Assembly: GCA_014860575.1 (NCBI GenBank)
Contig: JACZJK010000028.1
Location: 62,001 to 126,000, forward strand
Origin: Bacteroidales bacterium
Lineage (GTDB): Bacteria > Bacteroidota > Bacteroidia > Bacteroidales > JAAYJT01
Length of the DNA: 64,000 bases
Direction of reading: 5' to 3'
Below, one piece after another: positions 15,936 to 56,010 of this stretch. A program made the position numbers and the translations under genes. Position 1 is the first letter of the stretch. Every line of letters starts with the position of its first letter. A model generated the notes under the pieces. The model did not search any database, was not told where the DNA came from, and was given only the letters and a program-made list of their open reading frames with translations.

Positions 15936-16370
15936 TTATTTAACGCCTGTGTGGCCAAAACCGCCACTTCCCCTTTTTGTTACGGCCAATTGATCAACCT
16001 GCTCCCATTGGGCTTGTTCATGCCTGCTGATGATCATTTGTGCGATCCTGTCGCCGTCAACAATTTCCTGAACTTCTCCGGATAAATTAATTACGATCAC
16101 TTTTACTTCGCCACGATAATCGCTGTCAATGGTTCCCGGGGAATTCAACACCGTAATTCCCTTTTTAATGGCCAATCCACTTCTGGACCTAACCTGTGCT
16201 TCGTAGCCTTGTGGAATTTCAATAAATACTCCTGTTGGGATCAAAGCCCGCTCAAGAGGGTTTAAAACAATACCTTGTGATAAAAAGGCGCGTATGTCCA
16301 TTCCCGCTGAGTAATCTGTTTCATAAGCCGGTAGGGGATGATGAGAGTGGTTTACTATTTTAACCTTCAT
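15936..16370 (-). CDS. dut: dUTP pyrophosphatase
   Basis: Hydrolyses dUTP to dUMP and pyrophosphate, keeping uracil out of DNA and feeding dTMP synthesis. It is a homotrimeric-type dUTPase of 144 residues, the normal length. Conserved motifs are visible: AGMDIRAF (motif 1), [10 protein letters not shown] (2), [10 protein letters not shown] (3), DRIAQMI (4) and the C-terminal [10 protein letters not shown] (5) that closes the active site. A TAATTTTG box at 16388-16395 precedes it by 17 nt. It is followed by the TPR-DUF4292-EnvC genes. Confidence 0.97.
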
Positions 16371-16387
16371 TGGTAAATGATTTGCGC

Positions 16388-16395
16388 CAAAATTA
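16388..16395 (-). promoter_or_regulatory. Candidate -7 box of dut
   Basis: The minus strand reads TAATTTTG (TAnnTTTG), 17 nt before the dut ATG. Confidence 0.45.
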
Positions 16396-16407
16396 GTTAA
16401 AAATTTT

Positions 16408-16447
16408 GAGGCTGAGGCTGAGGCTAAGACTGAGGCTAAGGTTAAGG
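16408..16447. repeat. GAGGCT 6-bp tandem repeat
   Basis: About six degenerate hexamer units (GAGGCT / AAGACT / AAGGTT) in the spacer between the permease stop and the dut promoter. Confidence 0.7.
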
Positions 16448-16488
16448 AGAGGAAGGTCAGGATAATTGGAGATCAGATTTGGAGCTGG

Positions 16489-17721
16489 TCATCCAAGCTT
16501 CTGTTCAAAGTACTTTTTTTTGATCTGGTGAATGGGGTACCAAACTGCCGGCAAACCGATTCCGATCACCATAAGTAAAACATAAACAAAGTCAATAAAT
16601 TGGAGTTCAACCGGGTAAGCCTCTACCACAAATGAACCTCCTCCTGAATGCAATGGCACAACTCCAAATTGGATTTGAACCCAGCAAATCAGTGCGCCGA
16701 GAATCATACCCAGGATGGCGCCTGAAAAAGTAATTAAAAATCCCTCGGCGAAAAAGATTCGTTTTATCAGCGTTTCGTTTGCTCCCATGCTGTGCAACAC
16801 TGCAATATCCTTTTTTTTGTCGAGGATAAGCATGGATAAAGTCCCAATAATATTAAACGTGGCGATAAAAAGAATGAAACCAAGGATCACGAAAATGGCC
16901 AGTTTTTCCGATTTCATGATCTTATAAAGCATTTCCTGTTGTTCGTAACGATCTTTGACGCTGAAACGATTGCCGGCAATTTTTTTTATTTCTTCTTTGA
17001 TCCGCGCAATATTCGCATTCTCTTGCAAGGTAATTTCCACGGCTGTAGTTTCGGATTCGAACCCAAAAAGGTTTTGGGCAAATCGTATTGGTACAATTAC
17101 ATAACGTGTATCAAAATCCTGCTGGACAGAAAAAATGCCCGATGGAAAAATTGTTTTGCTGATAAAAGCCTGTTCGGGCAAGGTGCCGGTAAAACCACTA
17201 CGTTTTGGTGCATACATGGCAATGGGGTTCAGAAAATCATTCAGGTTTGCCCCTAATTGAAAAGCCACACCATAACCCAGAATAATATAATCCAGTTCAT
17301 CGCGCTGCAAAGTGAAGCTTCCACTTACAATCATCGAGTCCAGGCCACTGAAATCCTCAAAGTATTCAGCAACGCCTTTGACAGTAACCAGCGCTTGGCG
17401 ATCCATGTATTTCAACAAAGCGGTTTCTTCAAGCACCCCGGTGTATTGTATCACTCCTTGTAGATTTCTGATCTGGTCTCCTGAAAGATCATCAGGCAAA
17501 AAGGTTTTTCCTTCCACCAATGTAATTTTCAGATCCGGGTCAAAAGTGTTGAACAAGGATTTAACCAACGTTTCAAAACCATTAAACACTGAAAGCACAA
17601 TTACCATAGCCATAGTTCCAACCAAAACACCCACCACCGAAATGATTGAGATGATATTAACAATGTTATGGCTCTTTTTCGAAACCAGGTATCGCTTGGC
17701 TATGTAAAGGGAAAGGTTCAT
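16489..17721 (-). CDS. LolC/LolE-like ABC transporter permease (FtsX family)
   Basis: A 410-residue inner-membrane protein with the FtsX/MacB topology: one N-terminal helix (NIVNIISIISVVGVLVGTMAMVIV), a periplasmic domain (~50-265), then three C-terminal helices (FVILGFILFIATFNIIGTLSMLIL; a second around residue 320; a third around 375). The opening LSLYIAKRYLVSKKSHN and VSVVG segment match lipoprotein-releasing system permeases, which extract lipoproteins from the inner membrane for LolA. No ATPase partner is adjacent, which is common in Bacteroidota. It lies in the rbfA-to-tatA minus-strand run. Confidence 0.88.
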   Translation of the reverse strand: MNLSLYIAKRYLVSKKSHNIVNIISIISVVGVLVGTMAMVIVLSVFNGFETLVKSLFNTFDPDLKITLVEGKTFLPDDLSGDQIRNLQGVIQYTGVLEETALLKYMDRQALVTVKGVAEYFEDFSGLDSMIVSGSFTLQRDELDYIILGYGVAFQLGANLNDFLNPIAMYAPKRSGFTGTLPEQAFISKTIFPSGIFSVQQDFDTRYVIVPIRFAQNLFGFESETTAVEITLQENANIARIKEEIKKIAGNRFSVKDRYEQQEMLYKIMKSEKLAIFVILGFILFIATFNIIGTLSMLILDKKKDIAVLHSMGANETLIKRIFFAEGFLITFSGAILGMILGALICWVQIQFGVVPLHSGGGSFVVEAYPVELQFIDFVYVLLMVIGIGLPAVWYPIHQIKKKYFEQKLG

Positions 17722-17747
17722 GGGTTGTGATGCAGTGATGCCGTATG

Positions 17748-17865
17748 TTCTTGATGCTTGATTCTTGTTGCTGGTTTCTAGTTGCTGGTCTCTTCGTCCC
17801 TCGTCCCAGTTTCTTACCTCATGTCTCTTGATTCTTGTGTCTTGTCTCTTGTTTCTTGTCTCTTA
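17748..17865. repeat. CTTG-rich word-like spacer repeat
   Basis: Direct degenerate repeats of TCTTGTTTCTTG, TTGATTCTTG, TTGCTGGTTTC and CGTCCCTCGTCCC fill the gap between the methyltransferase stop and the permease start. The reverse complement of the CGTCCC part recurs downstream of trpS. Confidence 0.6.
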
Positions 17866-29269: not shown

Positions 29270-29348
29270 ACATTCCATCACTCCATCACTCCATCACTCC
29301 ATTACTCCAATTAAACAGCATTACTGTATAACTGCATAACTGCAACAC
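29270..29348. repeat. ACTCCATC spacer repeat
   Basis: Tandem CATCACTCC/CATTACTCC units grading into TAACTGCA units, in the spacer before the DUF6873-like gene. Confidence 0.65.
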
Positions 29349-41364: not shown

Positions 41365-42630
41365 ATGTTCGATCTCGATAAATGGCAGGAAATTTTCAGC
41401 GCAATTAAAAAGAACAAAATGCGCACTTTTCTCACAGCCTTTGGTGTGTTCTGGGGTATTTTCATGCTGATAATCATGCTTGGTTCGGGAAATGGATTAA
41501 AAAACGGGGTGACCAGAGGTTTTGGCGATTTTGCCACAAATAGCATTTTTATGTGGACCCGCAACACAACCGAGCCTTATAAAGGGTTGCCCCGCGGTCG
41601 CCGCTGGAATTTCCGCAATGCAGATATTCAGGCGTTGAGAAACAACATCAGCGAAATAGAATACATCGCTCCCCGCATACAGGCCTGGGGTAGCGAAGGC
41701 GCAAATAATGTGGTCAGAAACCAAAACACAGGAGCATTCTTCATTTATGGCGATTATCCCGAATGGAACCTGATTGACCCCGTTGAAATGGTGAGTGGCC
41801 GCTTCCTCAACCACTCTGACATTGATCAGACCAGAAAGGTGGCAGTGATCGGAACAAGGGTGAGCGAGGTTTTGTTTGAATCTGATGAAGACCCGATTGG
41901 ACAGTATATTAAAATACAAGATGTTTTCTTTCAGGTTATTGGTGTGTTTAAGCCGCGCAGCACCGAAGTGAACTTTGGAGGTGATAAAACCCAAAGTATA
42001 CATATCCCCTTTACAACCCTGCAGAGAGTGTATAATTATGGAGATATTGTAGGCTGGTTTGCCTTCACTTCACAACCGGACGTACCGGTTAGCCAGGTAG
42101 AAAACAAGGCTATTTCCCTGCTTAAACGGCGGCATACTATTTCACCCGATGATAAGCAAGCCGTTGGGTTTTTCAACATGGAAGAGCAATACAAGAAAAT
42201 GATGGGATTATTTATGGGCATCAATGTGTTGATCTGGATTGTTGGAACCGGAACCTTATTTGCCGGGGTAATCGGGATCAGCAATATTATGCTCGTTATT
42301 GTTAAAGAGCGGACCAGGGAAATTGGAATTCAACGCGCCATCGGAGCTTCGCCCTTCAAAATTGTAAGCCAGATTATTACCGAATCTGTTTTTCTAACAA
42401 CATTGGCAGGATATATTGGTCTGGTGCTTGGAGTGGCCCTGGTTGAACTCATCAATTTTGCTTTATCACAAGGCGGTGGCGAAGGCAATATGATCCACAA
42501 CCCACAGGTTGATTTCAATGTAGCCATCAATGCTTTGATCATTTTGGTTGTATCAGGAGCCATTGCCGGATTTATCCCGGCCCGCAAAGCCATTAGTATA
42601 AAGCCAATTGATGCACTTAGGTATGAGTGA
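41365..42630 (+). CDS. MacB-like ABC permease, second paralog
   Basis: A 421-residue permease with the same start (MFDLDKWQEIFSAIKKNKMRTFLT) and topology as its upstream neighbour: helix 1 (FGVFWGIFMLIIMLGSG), a periplasmic core, then NVLIWIVGTGTLFAGVIGISNIMLVIV and two further C-terminal helices, closing with IPARKAISIKPIDALRYE. The periplasmic domains have diverged, suggesting that the pair works as a heterodimer. The substrate is unknown. Confidence 0.93.
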   Translation: MFDLDKWQEIFSAIKKNKMRTFLTAFGVFWGIFMLIIMLGSGNGLKNGVTRGFGDFATNSIFMWTRNTTEPYKGLPRGRRWNFRNADIQALRNNISEIEYIAPRIQAWGSEGANNVVRNQNTGAFFIYGDYPEWNLIDPVEMVSGRFLNHSDIDQTRKVAVIGTRVSEVLFESDEDPIGQYIKIQDVFFQVIGVFKPRSTEVNFGGDKTQSIHIPFTTLQRVYNYGDIVGWFAFTSQPDVPVSQVENKAISLLKRRHTISPDDKQAVGFFNMEEQYKKMMGLFMGINVLIWIVGTGTLFAGVIGISNIMLVIVKERTREIGIQRAIGASPFKIVSQIITESVFLTTLAGYIGLVLGVALVELINFALSQGGGEGNMIHNPQVDFNVAINALIILVVSGAIAGFIPARKAISIKPIDALRYE

Positions 42631-42631
42631 C

Positions 42632-42740
42632 AAGGAGAAGAGGAGACAAGGGGACGAAGGACGAAGGGAAAAGGAAACCCGAAACGCCGAACACCAAACT
42701 TGAAACCTTGAACCTTGAACCCGGAACTTTGAACCCAGAA
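42632..42740. repeat. Spacer repeat after the second permease gene
   Basis: GGACGAAGGACGAAGG units followed by CCTTGAACCTTGAACCCGG and ACTTTGAACCC units, a near copy of the end of the spacer at 41205-41325. Confidence 0.65.
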
Positions 42741-51771: not shown

Positions 51772-52767
51772 ATGGATATTGTTGTAAGCGGCATCAGGCC
51801 TACCGGAAACCTCCACCTTGGTAATTATTTTGGAGCGGTTCAGAATTTTATAAGGATGCAGGAAGAGCACCAGTGCTATTTTTTCATCGCCGATTATCAT
51901 TCGCTCACCACTCACCCAACACCTGCCGATTTGCACGGCAATGTTAAAAATGTGCTGGTTAATTTCCTGGCCGCCGGCATGGATCCTGAAAAAGCTATCT
52001 TGTACATTCAAAGCGATGTTCCTGAAGTTACAGAGCTTTATCTGCTGCTAAACATGAATGCCTATTTGGGTGAATTGGAAAGGGTGGCGTCATTCAAGGA
52101 AAAAGTGCGAACCCAACCCAATAACATCAACGCCGGTTTGCTCACCTATCCCACCTTGATGGCGGCTGATGTTATGATCCACAAAGCTGCCAAGGTTCCC
52201 GTAGGAAAAGACCAGGAACAACACCTTGAAATGATGCGCAATTTTGCGAACCGTTTCAATCGTATGTATAATGTGGAATATTTCCCTGCCCCTGTGGCTT
52301 TTAACTTCGGAGAGGAACTGATTAAAATTCCCGGGCTGGATGGCAGCACCAAAATGAGCAAATCAGATGGCGATCAAAACGCCATTTATTTATCTGACGA
52401 ACCCGAAGCCATCCGCAAAAAAGTCATGCGCGCCGTAACCGATGCCGGTCCAACTGAAGAAAACCAGCCCAAACCCCAGCCCATCGAAAATATTTTCCAG
52501 TTAATGAAGGCGCTTTCCTCACAGGAGGTTTATGAGCACTACAGCAAGCTTTACAATTCCTGCCAGATCCGATACGGCGATATGAAGAAGCAATTGGCTG
52601 AAGATGCTATAGCCTTCACAGCTCCCTTCCGTGAAAAGATCAAGGAATTGAATTCCGACAATAACCATCTGCATAAAGTCGCCAGCCTTGGCGCAGCAAA
52701 AGCCCGTGAAAGCGCCTCCCGCACCATCCTCGAAGTGAGGGAGATTATTGGGTTTAAGGCATTTTAG
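51772..52767 (+). CDS. trpS: Tryptophanyl-tRNA synthetase
   Basis: Charges tRNA-Trp. A class I synthetase of 331 residues; HIGH motif in PTGNLHLGNYFGAV and KMSKS motif in GSTKMSKSDGDQN (~200). The final segment RTILEVREIIGFKAF is repeated, with three changes, as the C-terminal tail of the TlpA-like protein downstream, and the 70 or so bp around the stop are duplicated there. The gene itself seems complete and functional. TAATTTCG (51736-51743), directly after the rng terminator, is a weak -7 box candidate. Confidence 0.96.
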   Translation: MDIVVSGIRPTGNLHLGNYFGAVQNFIRMQEEHQCYFFIADYHSLTTHPTPADLHGNVKNVLVNFLAAGMDPEKAILYIQSDVPEVTELYLLLNMNAYLGELERVASFKEKVRTQPNNINAGLLTYPTLMAADVMIHKAAKVPVGKDQEQHLEMMRNFANRFNRMYNVEYFPAPVAFNFGEELIKIPGLDGSTKMSKSDGDQNAIYLSDEPEAIRKKVMRAVTDAGPTEENQPKPQPIENIFQLMKALSSQEVYEHYSKLYNSCQIRYGDMKKQLAEDAIAFTAPFREKIKELNSDNNHLHKVASLGAAKARESASRTILEVREIIGFKAF

Positions 52768-52791
52768 AGGGACGAAGTGACGAGGGACGAA
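52719..52791 (+). repeat. Direct repeat copy A: trpS 3' end
   Basis: The last 49 bases of trpS plus ~24 bases of the GAGGGACGA spacer. Copy B at 54255-54327 matches at 43 of 49 coding positions and stays in frame. Confidence 0.85.
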
Positions 52792-52896
52792 AGGAGGCTT
52801 GGTAAATTGAAGATGTTGACATGCTTCAAAAATATGTTTTGCTTTTTGAATCTTATCGCACACTATAATTCTTCTGTGCCAGGTACATTTTTAAAT

Positions 52897-54303
52897 ATGA
52901 GACGGTTGCAAGTTTTTTATTTATTAGTTTTCATTGCGCTTATCGGATGTAATCATAATCAATATGCAATCATTGTTCTTGAGGGTCATACAAACATTGC
53001 TGATACTCTTACAATCCGAGAGATAAGTACAGAAAAAGTCATCGCACAAATACCATTGATCAAAGGACAATCGGAATTCAGGTTTAAGCTTGACGAAATA
53101 ATTATCGCTTCGATTGAACTGAACGGGGTCGGTAATGAAAATATTTATGTTATTGATCCAAAGATTAAAAAAGTAATCAATATTGATTCTGCCGTATTGA
53201 TAAAAACAAATTCTGTGGCTGATTCGCTCTTGAAATACTTTTGGCGATCCCAAAACGAAATGTTTGAAAAACATAATGATTTGTTCTGGAATGAGAACAA
53301 TCCGGAGAAAGTGCTCATTGTGTTTGATAGCTTGATTTCTTTCAGGGATCAACAAATCACCCAGATGATGTCCAGATTAAGCAAGGATGAGAAACAGCTA
53401 TTGCGATCCCGAAACAAAGGATTGGCGTATAACTTTCTGTTTTATTACGGGAGAGTGATTAGAGAATATCCTTGTGAAACCAAATATTATGAATTTATTA
53501 CCAACATTGATCACGATCACATTTTGGTCAAATCAATGCCAGATATTGTGCTCTATAAATACGAAGTGGAGATTTTAAGGGCGATAGATACTATTCCGGG
53601 AATTGATCATTTTTTAACCCACATTGATAAACAGGATATTTCTCAGGACTTGAGGGACTTTTTAAAAGCAATTTACTTGCAACGGATTATTGATAGACCA
53701 TCATATTGGAAGAAACATCAATATTTTATTACAAAAGCTGCTTTTGAGAGCGCCCTTGAACGAGAGCAAGCCAACGATTATTTGCATCTCTTTAAAGGTT
53801 TGGCGAATTCTTTTATATCGTCCAGGGAAGGAGAAAGGGCATTTGATTTTTCTGCAATCGCAAACAATGGTAATACTGTTAAATTATCTGACTTTAAAGG
53901 CAAACTTGTAGTGATAGGTGTTTGGGCAACATGGTGTGCCCCTTGCCTGGACGAACGTCCACACTTAGTGGAAATTGCAGATAAATACGCCGGTAATTCC
54001 GATGTTGTAATATTATTGATTTCAGTGGATCAATCCGTAAAAAGCTGGAAAACATTCCTTAATAAAGAAATCAGAGCACATAAGGGGATTGACGTGATAA
54101 TTCCGGATGGGATGAAAACGGAGTTCGGAGAAAAGTATTTGATTAAAATTATTCCGAAATACATCATGATCAACGAAAATGGGCTGATCATTGATGTTGA
54201 CCTACCAAAGCCCTCATCGTCACTTGACATGAGAATTGAGGAGGAGTTAAGATTCCGCAGCATCCGCGAAATAAGAGAGATTATTGGGTTTAAGGCTTTT
54301 TAG
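52897..54303 (+). CDS. TlpA-like thioredoxin-fold lipoprotein with trpS-derived tail
   Basis: 468 residues from the ATG at 52897, which starts a lipoprotein signal (MRRLQVFYLLVFIALIGC); the frame is open back to 52777 but encodes unlikely sequence. An N-terminal DUF4369-like beta region (~25-110) and a helical middle precede a TlpA/ResA thioredoxin domain (~330-455) with GVWATWCAPCLDERPHL, giving a CAPC redox centre. It probably reduces or isomerises disulfides in the periplasm. The gene is visibly AT-rich. The last ~15 residues (SIREIREIIGFKAF) copy the end of TrpS, so the natural C terminus was probably near LRF. Confidence 0.88.
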   Translation: MRRLQVFYLLVFIALIGCNHNQYAIIVLEGHTNIADTLTIREISTEKVIAQIPLIKGQSEFRFKLDEIIIASIELNGVGNENIYVIDPKIKKVINIDSAVLIKTNSVADSLLKYFWRSQNEMFEKHNDLFWNENNPEKVLIVFDSLISFRDQQITQMMSRLSKDEKQLLRSRNKGLAYNFLFYYGRVIREYPCETKYYEFITNIDHDHILVKSMPDIVLYKYEVEILRAIDTIPGIDHFLTHIDKQDISQDLRDFLKAIYLQRIIDRPSYWKKHQYFITKAAFESALEREQANDYLHLFKGLANSFISSREGERAFDFSAIANNGNTVKLSDFKGKLVVIGVWATWCAPCLDERPHLVEIADKYAGNSDVVILLISVDQSVKSWKTFLNKEIRAHKGIDVIIPDGMKTEFGEKYLIKIIPKYIMINENGLIIDVDLPKPSSSLDMRIEEELRFRSIREIREIIGFKAF

Positions 54304-54327
54304 AGGGACGAGGGACGAGGGACGAAG
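54255..54327 (+). repeat. Direct repeat copy B: displaced trpS 3' end fused to TlpA-like gene
   Basis: Matches copy A at 52719-52791, offset by 1536 bp, including the stop codon and the following GAGGGACGA units. Five of the six coding differences are upstream of GAGATTATTGGGTTTAAGGC, which is identical in both copies. Confidence 0.85.
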
Positions 54328-54507: not shown

Positions 54508-56010
54508 ATGATTAAAAAGGTTTTGGTCGCTAACCGCGGCGAAATAGCCGTCAGGGTTATGCGATCCTGTCGTGAGATGGGCATCCTCACCACCGCCGTT
54601 TTCTCCGATGCCGACCGCAAATCCCTGCATGTGCGTTATGCTGACGAAGCTTACCACATTGGCCCTTCACCATCGGTTCAAAGTTATCTGAACATTGAAA
54701 AGATCATTGAAGTTGCCAAAAAATGTGGCGCCGATGCCATTCATCCCGGCTATGGTTTTCTTTCAGAAAATGAAAAATTCGCACAACGCTGTGCTGATGA
54801 AGGAATAATTTTCATTGGCCCCTCGCCTTATGCCATCTCAGCCATGGGCGACAAGATTACCGCGCGCAAACACATGTCGAAGGCTGGCGTTCCGGTGGTT
54901 CCGGGAACCCAGGATAAAATCACTGACGACAAGGAAGCAATAAAGATCATCAAAGAAATCGGTTTGCCGGTGATGATCAAAGCTTCGGCAGGCGGCGGTG
55001 GAAAAGGCATGCGTTTGGTTCGCAAGGAAAGTGAAATTATTGCCGGAATACGTGCTGCGCGCTCGGAAGCTGCTTCTGCTTTTGGCGATGATGCCGTTTA
55101 TATTGAAAAATATATTGATTCGCCCCATCACATCGAGTTCCAGATACTGGCCGATCAGCACGGGCATACTATTCATCTTTTTGAGCGCGAATGTTCGGTG
55201 CAGCGCCGCCACCAGAAAGTGATCGAGGAAACACCTTCGCCACTACTCACTCCTGAAATCCGTGAGGAAATGGGCCGTTATGCCGTAGCAGCAGCAAAAG
55301 CCGTAAATTATCATGGTGCAGGCACCATTGAGTTTATTGTTGATGACAACCTCAACTATTACTTCCTTGAAATGAACACACGCCTGCAGGTAGAACACCC
55401 TATCACCGAGCGGGTTGTGGGCGTTGATTTGGTAAAAGAGCAAATTCACATTGCCAACGGCGAACACCTGAAATTGAAGCAGGAAGATTTGCGCCAGTTC
55501 GGCCATGCCATTGAATGCCGGATTTATGCCGAAGACACCAACAACAACTTTATGCCTAGTCCGGGTCTGATCCGTCACATTACCGAACCTCTTGGTTTGG
55601 GTGTGAGGCATGATGGCTATGTGTACGAAGGTTATGAGATTCCTATTTATTACGACCCGATGATCTCCAAGCTGATTGTTTGGGCGCAAACCCGCGGGGA
55701 AGCCATCTGGCGAATGCGCAGGGCCTTGTATGAATACAAGATCACAGGTGTGAAAACGTCCATCAAATTCCTGGAAAGGATTATGGATGCACCGGCATTT
55801 AAAAGCGGAAACTACAACACCCATTTTATTCAGGACAATATGGATTTCCTGATGCAGGACCCTTATTGTGGCGACCGCTGCGAAACCCTTGCCATCATTG
55901 CAACTTATATTGATTACCTGGACAAACTCGGGTCAGAACCGAGCGCGAAGGTTTCGCAAAACGGAACAAGCAGATGGAAAGAACGTAGCCGACAAACGCT
56001 AAGGAGGTAA
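54508..56010 (+). CDS. accC: Biotin carboxylase subunit of acyl-CoA carboxylase
   Basis: ATP-dependent carboxylation of biotin on its carrier protein. 500 residues, a full biotin carboxylase: KVLVANRGEIAVRVMRSCREMG, DAIHPGYGFLSENEKFA, ATP-grasp glycine-rich loop KASAGGGGKGMRLV, and ECSVQRRHQKVIEETPSP and FLEMNTRLQVEHPITE with metal ligands. With the carrier and carboxyltransferase that follow, it forms a propionyl-/acetyl-CoA-type carboxylase. The C terminus has a short basic tail (SRWKERSRQTLRR) not typical of the family core. Confidence 0.94.
   Translation: MIKKVLVANRGEIAVRVMRSCREMGILTTAVFSDADRKSLHVRYADEAYHIGPSPSVQSYLNIEKIIEVAKKCGADAIHPGYGFLSENEKFAQRCADEGIIFIGPSPYAISAMGDKITARKHMSKAGVPVVPGTQDKITDDKEAIKIIKEIGLPVMIKASAGGGGKGMRLVRKESEIIAGIRAARSEAASAFGDDAVYIEKYIDSPHHIEFQILADQHGHTIHLFERECSVQRRHQKVIEETPSPLLTPEIREEMGRYAVAAAKAVNYHGAGTIEFIVDDNLNYYFLEMNTRLQVEHPITERVVGVDLVKEQIHIANGEHLKLKQEDLRQFGHAIECRIYAEDTNNNFMPSPGLIRHITEPLGLGVRHDGYVYEGYEIPIYYDPMISKLIVWAQTRGEAIWRMRRALYEYKITGVKTSIKFLERIMDAPAFKSGNYNTHFIQDNMDFLMQDPYCGDRCETLAIIATYIDYLDKLGSEPSAKVSQNGTSRWKERSRQTLRR

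Follow-up and report, generated by a model that had tools for sequence, protein, structure and literature searches.

In the stretch of 64,000 nucleotides analyzed here (the window), an AT-rich fragment carrying a gene for a TlpA-like lipoprotein lies between the intact trpS gene and a second copy of the trpS 3′ end, and this copy is read in frame by the TlpA-like gene. The layout is probably the outcome of an insertion with long target duplication, a foreign AT-rich fragment having been captured at the trpS 3′ end after the split from the congeners, and the route was probably illegitimate recombination of incoming DNA. Two further cases, at mnmA in the same genome (G000) and at trpS of a distant member of the order (G217), are alike in that an intact resident gene is followed by a single unrelated cargo gene (doubled at mnmA) and then by a copy of the resident 3′ end, with no visible recombinase. 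The comparison rests on one draft genome per species and on three events, one of them without a clean empty site.

All features of the locus lie on the plus strand. The trpS gene (51772–52767; tryptophanyl-tRNA synthetase, 331 amino acids, intact) was identified as an ORF matching the Pfam family tRNA-synt_1b (E = 9.2e-64), and its counterparts were matched in 57 out of 60 genomes searched, its own included. Its final 49 nucleotides, together with 24 nucleotides of a heptamer-type repeat, form repeat copy A (52719–52791), delimited by repeat search and alignment. It is followed by 1.46 kb of inserted AT-rich DNA (52792–54254) that is absent from the trpS–accC gap in both congeners and has a GC content of 0.36 vs. 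0.47 in trpS and 0.48 in accC. The TlpA-like lipoprotein gene (52897–54303, 468 amino acids), delimited by Pfam matches, the ends of homologues and alignment A1, likely starts at the ATG at 52897; the 508-amino-acid ORF from the GTG at 52777 is a mechanical ORF listing. Repeat copy B (54255–54326), comprising a trpS-like 3′ end and a heptamer repeat, adjoins the native downstream DNA; within it, 15 codons (RSIREIREIIGFKAF) and a stop (54256–54303) are read by the TlpA-like ORF, according to its translation and alignment A1, and are followed by about 3.3 units of a GGGACGA heptamer array (54304–54326). The native right-hand neighbor of trpS is accC (54508–56010), encoding biotin carboxylase (Pfam Biotin_carb_N, 5.6e-50; Biotin_carb_C, 2e-40; CPSase_L_D2, 1.3e-78).

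The repeat of the trpS end is real and far above chance. According to the first-pass annotation, the last 49 nucleotides of the gene and about 24 beyond it recur 1536 bp downstream, and both repeat search and alignment confirm this. The repeat search of the window yields a pair of segments, 52719–52775 and 54255–54311 (57 nt, 89% identity, spacing 1536, same orientation), and with one 1-nt gap allowed the match extends to 52791 and 54326, giving a repeat length of 72–73 nt. The observed 51 matches out of 57 compare with a best of 34 out of 57 in 500 first-order Markov sequences modeled on the downstream 6 kb, and a query of 80 nt from the trpS end, run against its own genome, gives E-values of 7.9e-36 for copy A, 2.9e-20 for copy B, and 1.6e-4 for the next match. 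The longest exact match between the copies is 20 nt (GAGATTATTGGGTTTAAGGC). Over the coding part, 43 out of 49 bases and 12 out of 15 residues are identical, the differences being T/S, L/R, V/I (two bases), and two silent changes; hence the description of these differences as mostly silent or conservative holds for the identity counts and the silent changes, but not for L/R. That copy B is in the frame of the TlpA-like gene and provides the stop codon, shared by both, is borne out by the ORF translation. The approximately 24 shared bases past the stop consist mostly of the dispersed GGGACGA heptamer repeat, into which 13 out of 18 own-genome matches of the 80-nt query (E ≤ 10) fall, and because the heptamer is dispersed, these bases alone are of little weight.

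In both congeners considered (G001 and G002; loci L010 and L011, gene order read by eye), trpS is located directly before accC with no insert, so that the empty site, which the first-pass annotation proposed to look for in relatives, is present in each of them. No second copy of the trpS end was found in the 3.0 and 0.5 kb examined after trpS in G001 and G002. Since both congeners have the empty site, the 1.5-kb stretch is an insertion in the lineage of the studied species; alternatively, and less simply, it would have been lost twice. Over the 49 bases, copies A and B differ at six positions, vs. 17 between A and G001 and 20 between B and G001, and by these sequence distances the duplication is younger than the split from the congeners. 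An origin of copy A in another lineage, or a match of copy B to the trpS of another lineage, is not indicated by the same distances (A–B 6/49 vs. A–G001 17/49 and B–G001 20/49, respectively), which would still be compatible with a very close donor of copy A. The displacement of the old end downstream agrees with the layout, as trpS keeps a complete end and the second end adjoins native downstream DNA.

To polarize the differences between the copies, 23 out of 29 outgroup trpS loci were used, and six were left out for differing ends. Two residues of copy B are derived, namely S (T in all 23 outgroups) and I (V in 19 out of 23), and one of copy A, L, which is found in none of the 23 outgroup ends. 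Copy B is farther than copy A from 17 outgroups out of 23, nearer to two, and equidistant from four, these comparisons not being independent. The pattern fits selection having kept copy A as part of trpS, with copy B drifting.

The cargo protein matches Redoxin (2.9e-16), AhpC-TSA (3.7e-13), and Thioredoxin_8 (9.1e-13); its thioredoxin-fold domain, at about residues 311–453, has a WCAPC motif that is invariant in alignment A1, and its N-terminus, judged by eye, has a signal peptide and an LIGC lipobox. It has no close relative in the data searched: the ten matches with the best non-self E-values in 99 genomes are partial, with 28–38% identity, the best match in its own genome has 31%, and the best by E-value among the best 80 matches of a GTDB scan has 41% identity over residues 311–442. 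Twelve distant TlpA-like loci were also found in viral contigs. The GC content of the insert ORF (0.36) lies within the lowest 2.4% of 4106 sampled windows. Judging from sequence, the cargo looks foreign in origin.

The end of this gene is defined by its homologues. Of 33 homologous loci, one ran off its locus, and 26 out of the remaining 32 end at query-equivalent positions 447–458, ten of them exactly at 453, while the trpS-derived tail starts at 454; of the six exceptions, three have alignments that pass through stop codons, one has an ORF that continues, and two finish at 461. In alignment A1 the 15-residue tail is an extension beyond the homologues. Most homologues thus end about where the tail begins, and therefore the right junction lies close to where the gene would naturally stop, its stop having been swapped for a borrowed one. 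Entry in the trpS frame had a one-in-three chance, and either of the other frames of copy B also yields a short tail. In an AlphaFold2 model built from six alignment rows (mean pLDDT 57.8), the last helix, residues 443–463, continues into the tail with pLDDT of 68 in this block and 43 after it, values too weak to interpret. Most likely, the tail is a tolerated by-product.

A similar arrangement is found at mnmA in the same genome (C16:63123–64187, minus strand, tRNA_Me_trans families). The whole array (C16:60665–64187; L184:665–4187) consists of, in order, mnmA, a gene for 302 amino acids, a copy of the mnmA end (84 nt, 86%), another one (57 nt, 81%), a gene for a 320-amino-acid paralogue, and a third copy (75 nt, 81%). 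All copies of the mnmA end are degenerate, and the repeat length is about 81 nt. The two cargo genes are paralogous, with 27% identity, and both products are probably exported, judging by eye from their N-termini; beyond this neighbor, no relative of the 302-amino-acid protein was found in 60 genomes. A 207-nt match (86%) links the two units, and therefore the unit together with its end copy has been duplicated in tandem, which blurs the first step. Each congener has one mnmA end, and the neighborhood differs between them, with an AAA-ATPase-like gene in G002 and other neighbors in G001, so that there is no clean empty site. A search with the 28-amino-acid mnmA tail matched 162 out of 295 genomes of the order, many of them weakly; the studied genome has three matches, and a second or third match is present in 17 further genomes, none near the first among those for which places are listed. 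Hairpins of the GCCACGAATGCACGAATG type are located behind each mnmA-locus unit.

In G217 (L178:4712–8061), an intact trpS is followed by a gene for 539 amino acids, a decayed part of trpS, and a native esterase gene, while a congener of G217 (G120) has the empty site at trpS. The second copy comprises a 95-nt piece of the front part of trpS (89%) and 302 nt of its end (96%), has an internal deletion, and may be what is left of a duplication that was once larger. Repeat lengths in the three events are thus about 72, about 81, and at least 302 nt. The cargoes at mnmA and in G217 are unrelated to each other by sequence comparison and match no Pfam family, and none of the four cargoes (one at trpS, two at mnmA, one in G217) has a match among PADLOC defense systems. 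Their GC content is 0.33–0.38 vs. 0.46–0.48 in the resident genes, and all of them have a signal-peptide-like start (by eye).

Searching with a 24-amino-acid trpS tail, we obtained matches in 252 out of 295 genomes of the order, with two matches in four genomes (G000, G201, G217, and G237). The extra matches in G201 and G237 are located on other contigs, with E-values no better than chance (1.65 and 0.35, respectively), leaving a nearby second trpS end in two out of 252 genomes, a count in which the peptide query misses decayed copies (copy B itself has E = 0.018). The proposed search for similar tails thus did find a nearby second copy, but in these two genomes only, and the cargo of G217 is unrelated. 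No other cargo between the same trpS repeats was seen. The trpS 3′ end as a frequented site was rejected on the same count.

We also scanned gene ends in 1.22 out of 4.41 Mb of the studied genome, considering ORFs of at least 100 amino acids and a flank of 6 kb, in total 861 3′ ends (575 + 286 in two batches) and 860 5′ ends (576 + 284); a single match of low complexity and the tandem paralogues recognized by tblastn were removed. Two 3′ ends, those of trpS and mnmA, and no 5′ end were retained; a less strict scan, covering 913 ends, recovered these two loci again, along with tandem paralogues and ORFs rich in repeats. The sample from G217 yielded one 3′ end out of 264, that of trpS, another 3′ match going back to a two-gene unit that was duplicated in tandem and has since decayed. 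No bracketed ends were found in G134 (0/310 3′ ends, 0/310 5′ ends) or, after removal of paralogues, in Escherichia coli (0/262 and 0/260, respectively). Most sampled gene ends thus have no bracket of this kind, and three loci at 3′ ends vs. zero or one at 5′ ends are too few to claim a preference; selection against broken genes could be a source of a 3′ bias.

The one 5′ match, at a doubtful 100-amino-acid ORF of G217, is an intergenic 69-nt direct repeat (86%) around a 389-amino-acid gene, AAA-ATPase-like by eye (C15, about 236682–238119; L234), with a 47-nt repeat nearby in swapped order. Its interpretation as a dispersed repeat was dropped, since it occurs only twice in 416 kb of G217, and it may represent another such insertion, at a distance from gene ends. 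On the same contig (L241, about 16245–17798), there are tandem near-identical copies of a 120-amino-acid gene and a 105-amino-acid gene, GIY-YIG-like by eye. In the window, a 421-amino-acid ORF (41365–42630, start MFDLDKWQEIFSAIKK) seems to belong to a run of tandem paralogues, its start being found again about 1.4 kb upstream.

By the mechanism we consider probable, an AT-rich fragment with the TlpA-like lipoprotein gene would have been captured by the lineage of the studied species at the 3′ end of trpS, the join leaving trpS complete upstream and the last approximately 72 bases being re-made beyond the fragment, beside native DNA. As the far junction would lie close to where the TlpA-like gene naturally ends, the frame of this gene would continue into the trpS copy for 15 residues and a stop, and later copy A would be selected as trpS, while copy B drifts. 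The joining may have been illegitimate, with one end perhaps anchored by the dispersed GGGACGA repeat, or else a replicative template switch may have returned upstream of its departure point. The single step, the outside source of the DNA, and the molecular route are all what we infer from the layout. The same final structure would also result from two steps, first a short tandem duplication at the end of trpS and then a separate entry of the TlpA-like gene between its two copies, and the sampled genomes contain many tandem duplications of genes or gene pairs. We regard this as rather unlikely, as it would take two events at the same place, repeated at mnmA and once more in G217, and among the end-scan matches, though these are not a dedicated test, there is no cargo-free end copy. 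More plausible, if still clearly short of probable, is a homology-facilitated or Campbell-type integration, which would lead to the layout of the preferred explanation by a more narrowly defined route: incoming DNA with a trpS end or a GGGACGA array would have recombined with the resident trpS end. The layout fits, the heptamer is dispersed (13 further places, E ≤ 10) and present at the left junction of the insert, the genome encodes a ComEC-family protein, and for T6SS/Rhs loci a displacement of older 3′ regions through recombination of this type has been proposed (PMC5361080). On the other hand, a donor of the trpS end would have had to be a very close relative (six differences out of 49), no donor with the same cargo was found in 99 genomes or among the best 80 matches of the GTDB scan, and ComEC, also matched in ten out of 14 control genomes, is no proof of competence.

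Integrative elements residing at 3′ ends of tRNA and protein genes rebuild and duplicate the gene end. A site-specific element with the trpS 3′ end as its attachment site, carrying a replacement end, would accordingly explain the empty site, the complete gene end, the second end downstream, and the identical 20-nt core, and trpS is hit in G217 as well. At trpS, unlike in such elements, no recombinase was found, the site is not frequented (a nearby second end in two out of 252 genomes, decayed copies being missed), and the repeat length varies among the events. No recombinase family was matched by Pfam in the four ORFs of the insert, in line with the first-pass remark that no integrase is visible; of ten places with tyrosine integrases (PF00589) in the genome only one is on this contig, about 82 kb away; and no resolvase-family serine recombinase (PF00239) was found in the genome, these two families being the ones for which it was searched. 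The exact core is absent from viral contigs. Hallmarks of a transposon are lacking too, with none of six inverted pairs located at the insert ends (at a minimum of 16 nt, shorter ones being missed) and a duplication that, at 72 nt, is not short. Hence, of the originally suggested mobile unit entering at the trpS 3′ end, the entry of a unit stands, as seen from the empty site in both congeners, whereas its site-specific mobility is not supported and in our view very improbable. An assembly chimera is hardly credible: the genome is a draft of 66 contigs, but the flanks retain the congeneric order trpS–accC, the longest exact match between the copies is 20 nt, the ORF openly crosses the right junction, and the G217 case comes from a separate assembly.

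Insertion with long target duplication was reportedly described by Nobusato and coauthors in 2000 and by Furuta and coauthors in 2010 for restriction-modification genes of Helicobacter pylori. In the parts of the relevant papers available, a gene unit lies between direct repeats of the target, the duplications are long and variable, and the process is suggested by comparison of related genomes (PMC1643837, PMC3154945, PMC3031569, PMC4978471), while tandem amplification through the flanking repeats is expected (PMC3031569). The loci studied here resemble this class in having one repeat copy at the empty site of relatives, long flanking target repeats of variable length, and, at mnmA, tandem amplification. 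They differ in the cargo, which is a TlpA-like lipoprotein gene at trpS and other exported orphans elsewhere, whereas the H. pylori class is tied to restriction-modification; as far as the available part of one source goes, the latter is its usual association rather than its definition (PMC1643837). They also differ in the host, another bacterium, and in the in-frame fusion created by the trpS duplication. By analogy, the trpS insert would belong to the class already known from H. pylori, with the fusion as its instructive feature.

Partial likenesses exist to other systems, compared here with the available passages of the respective papers. In homology-facilitated illegitimate recombination at T6SS/Rhs loci, a module likewise lies upstream and the old 3′ region downstream with no recombinase, but there the resident effector receives a different end, while trpS keeps an equivalent end (PMC5361080). 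In merodiploids of Streptococcus pneumoniae made by transformation, incoming DNA gives duplications around a cassette, but these are about 100–900 kb and require chromosomal repeats (PMC3784515). Transposed genes of Arabidopsis are single genes between direct repeats of more than 30 bp with one copy in a relative, but the host is a plant and recombination through circles is favored there (PMC2869330). Such a layout in Bacteroidetes was not found in our literature search, which is no proof of its absence from print.

It follows from the preferred explanation that a single foreign gene may settle behind an essential gene with no harm to the resident and no recombinase of its own, and that such a capture event can give a protein a new tail. 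A more general, and for now doubtful, proposal is that in this order AT-rich genes of exported proteins are captured behind housekeeping genes in a recombinase-free manner, the 3′ end being copied to the far side and the resident left intact, with flanking repeats that allow for amplification and an occasional housekeeping-derived C-terminal tail. Should the layout turn out to be common across the order, direct repeats of gene 3′ ends could serve as an easy marker of recent gene capture, and the mechanism of insertion with long target duplication would be testable outside Helicobacter.

As for short repeats, GGGACGA repeats occur in the window at 17794–17807, 42651–42664, 52777–52790, and 54305–54325 (five matches vs. 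0.16 expected). Octamer arrays of the CCATTACT/TCCATCAC type are located at 29274, 30158, 54342, and 56736, and a dispersed short inverted-repeat sequence of the CCCCCTTTGAAAAAGGGGG type is present on contigs C16, C28, C43, and C56 of the same genome.
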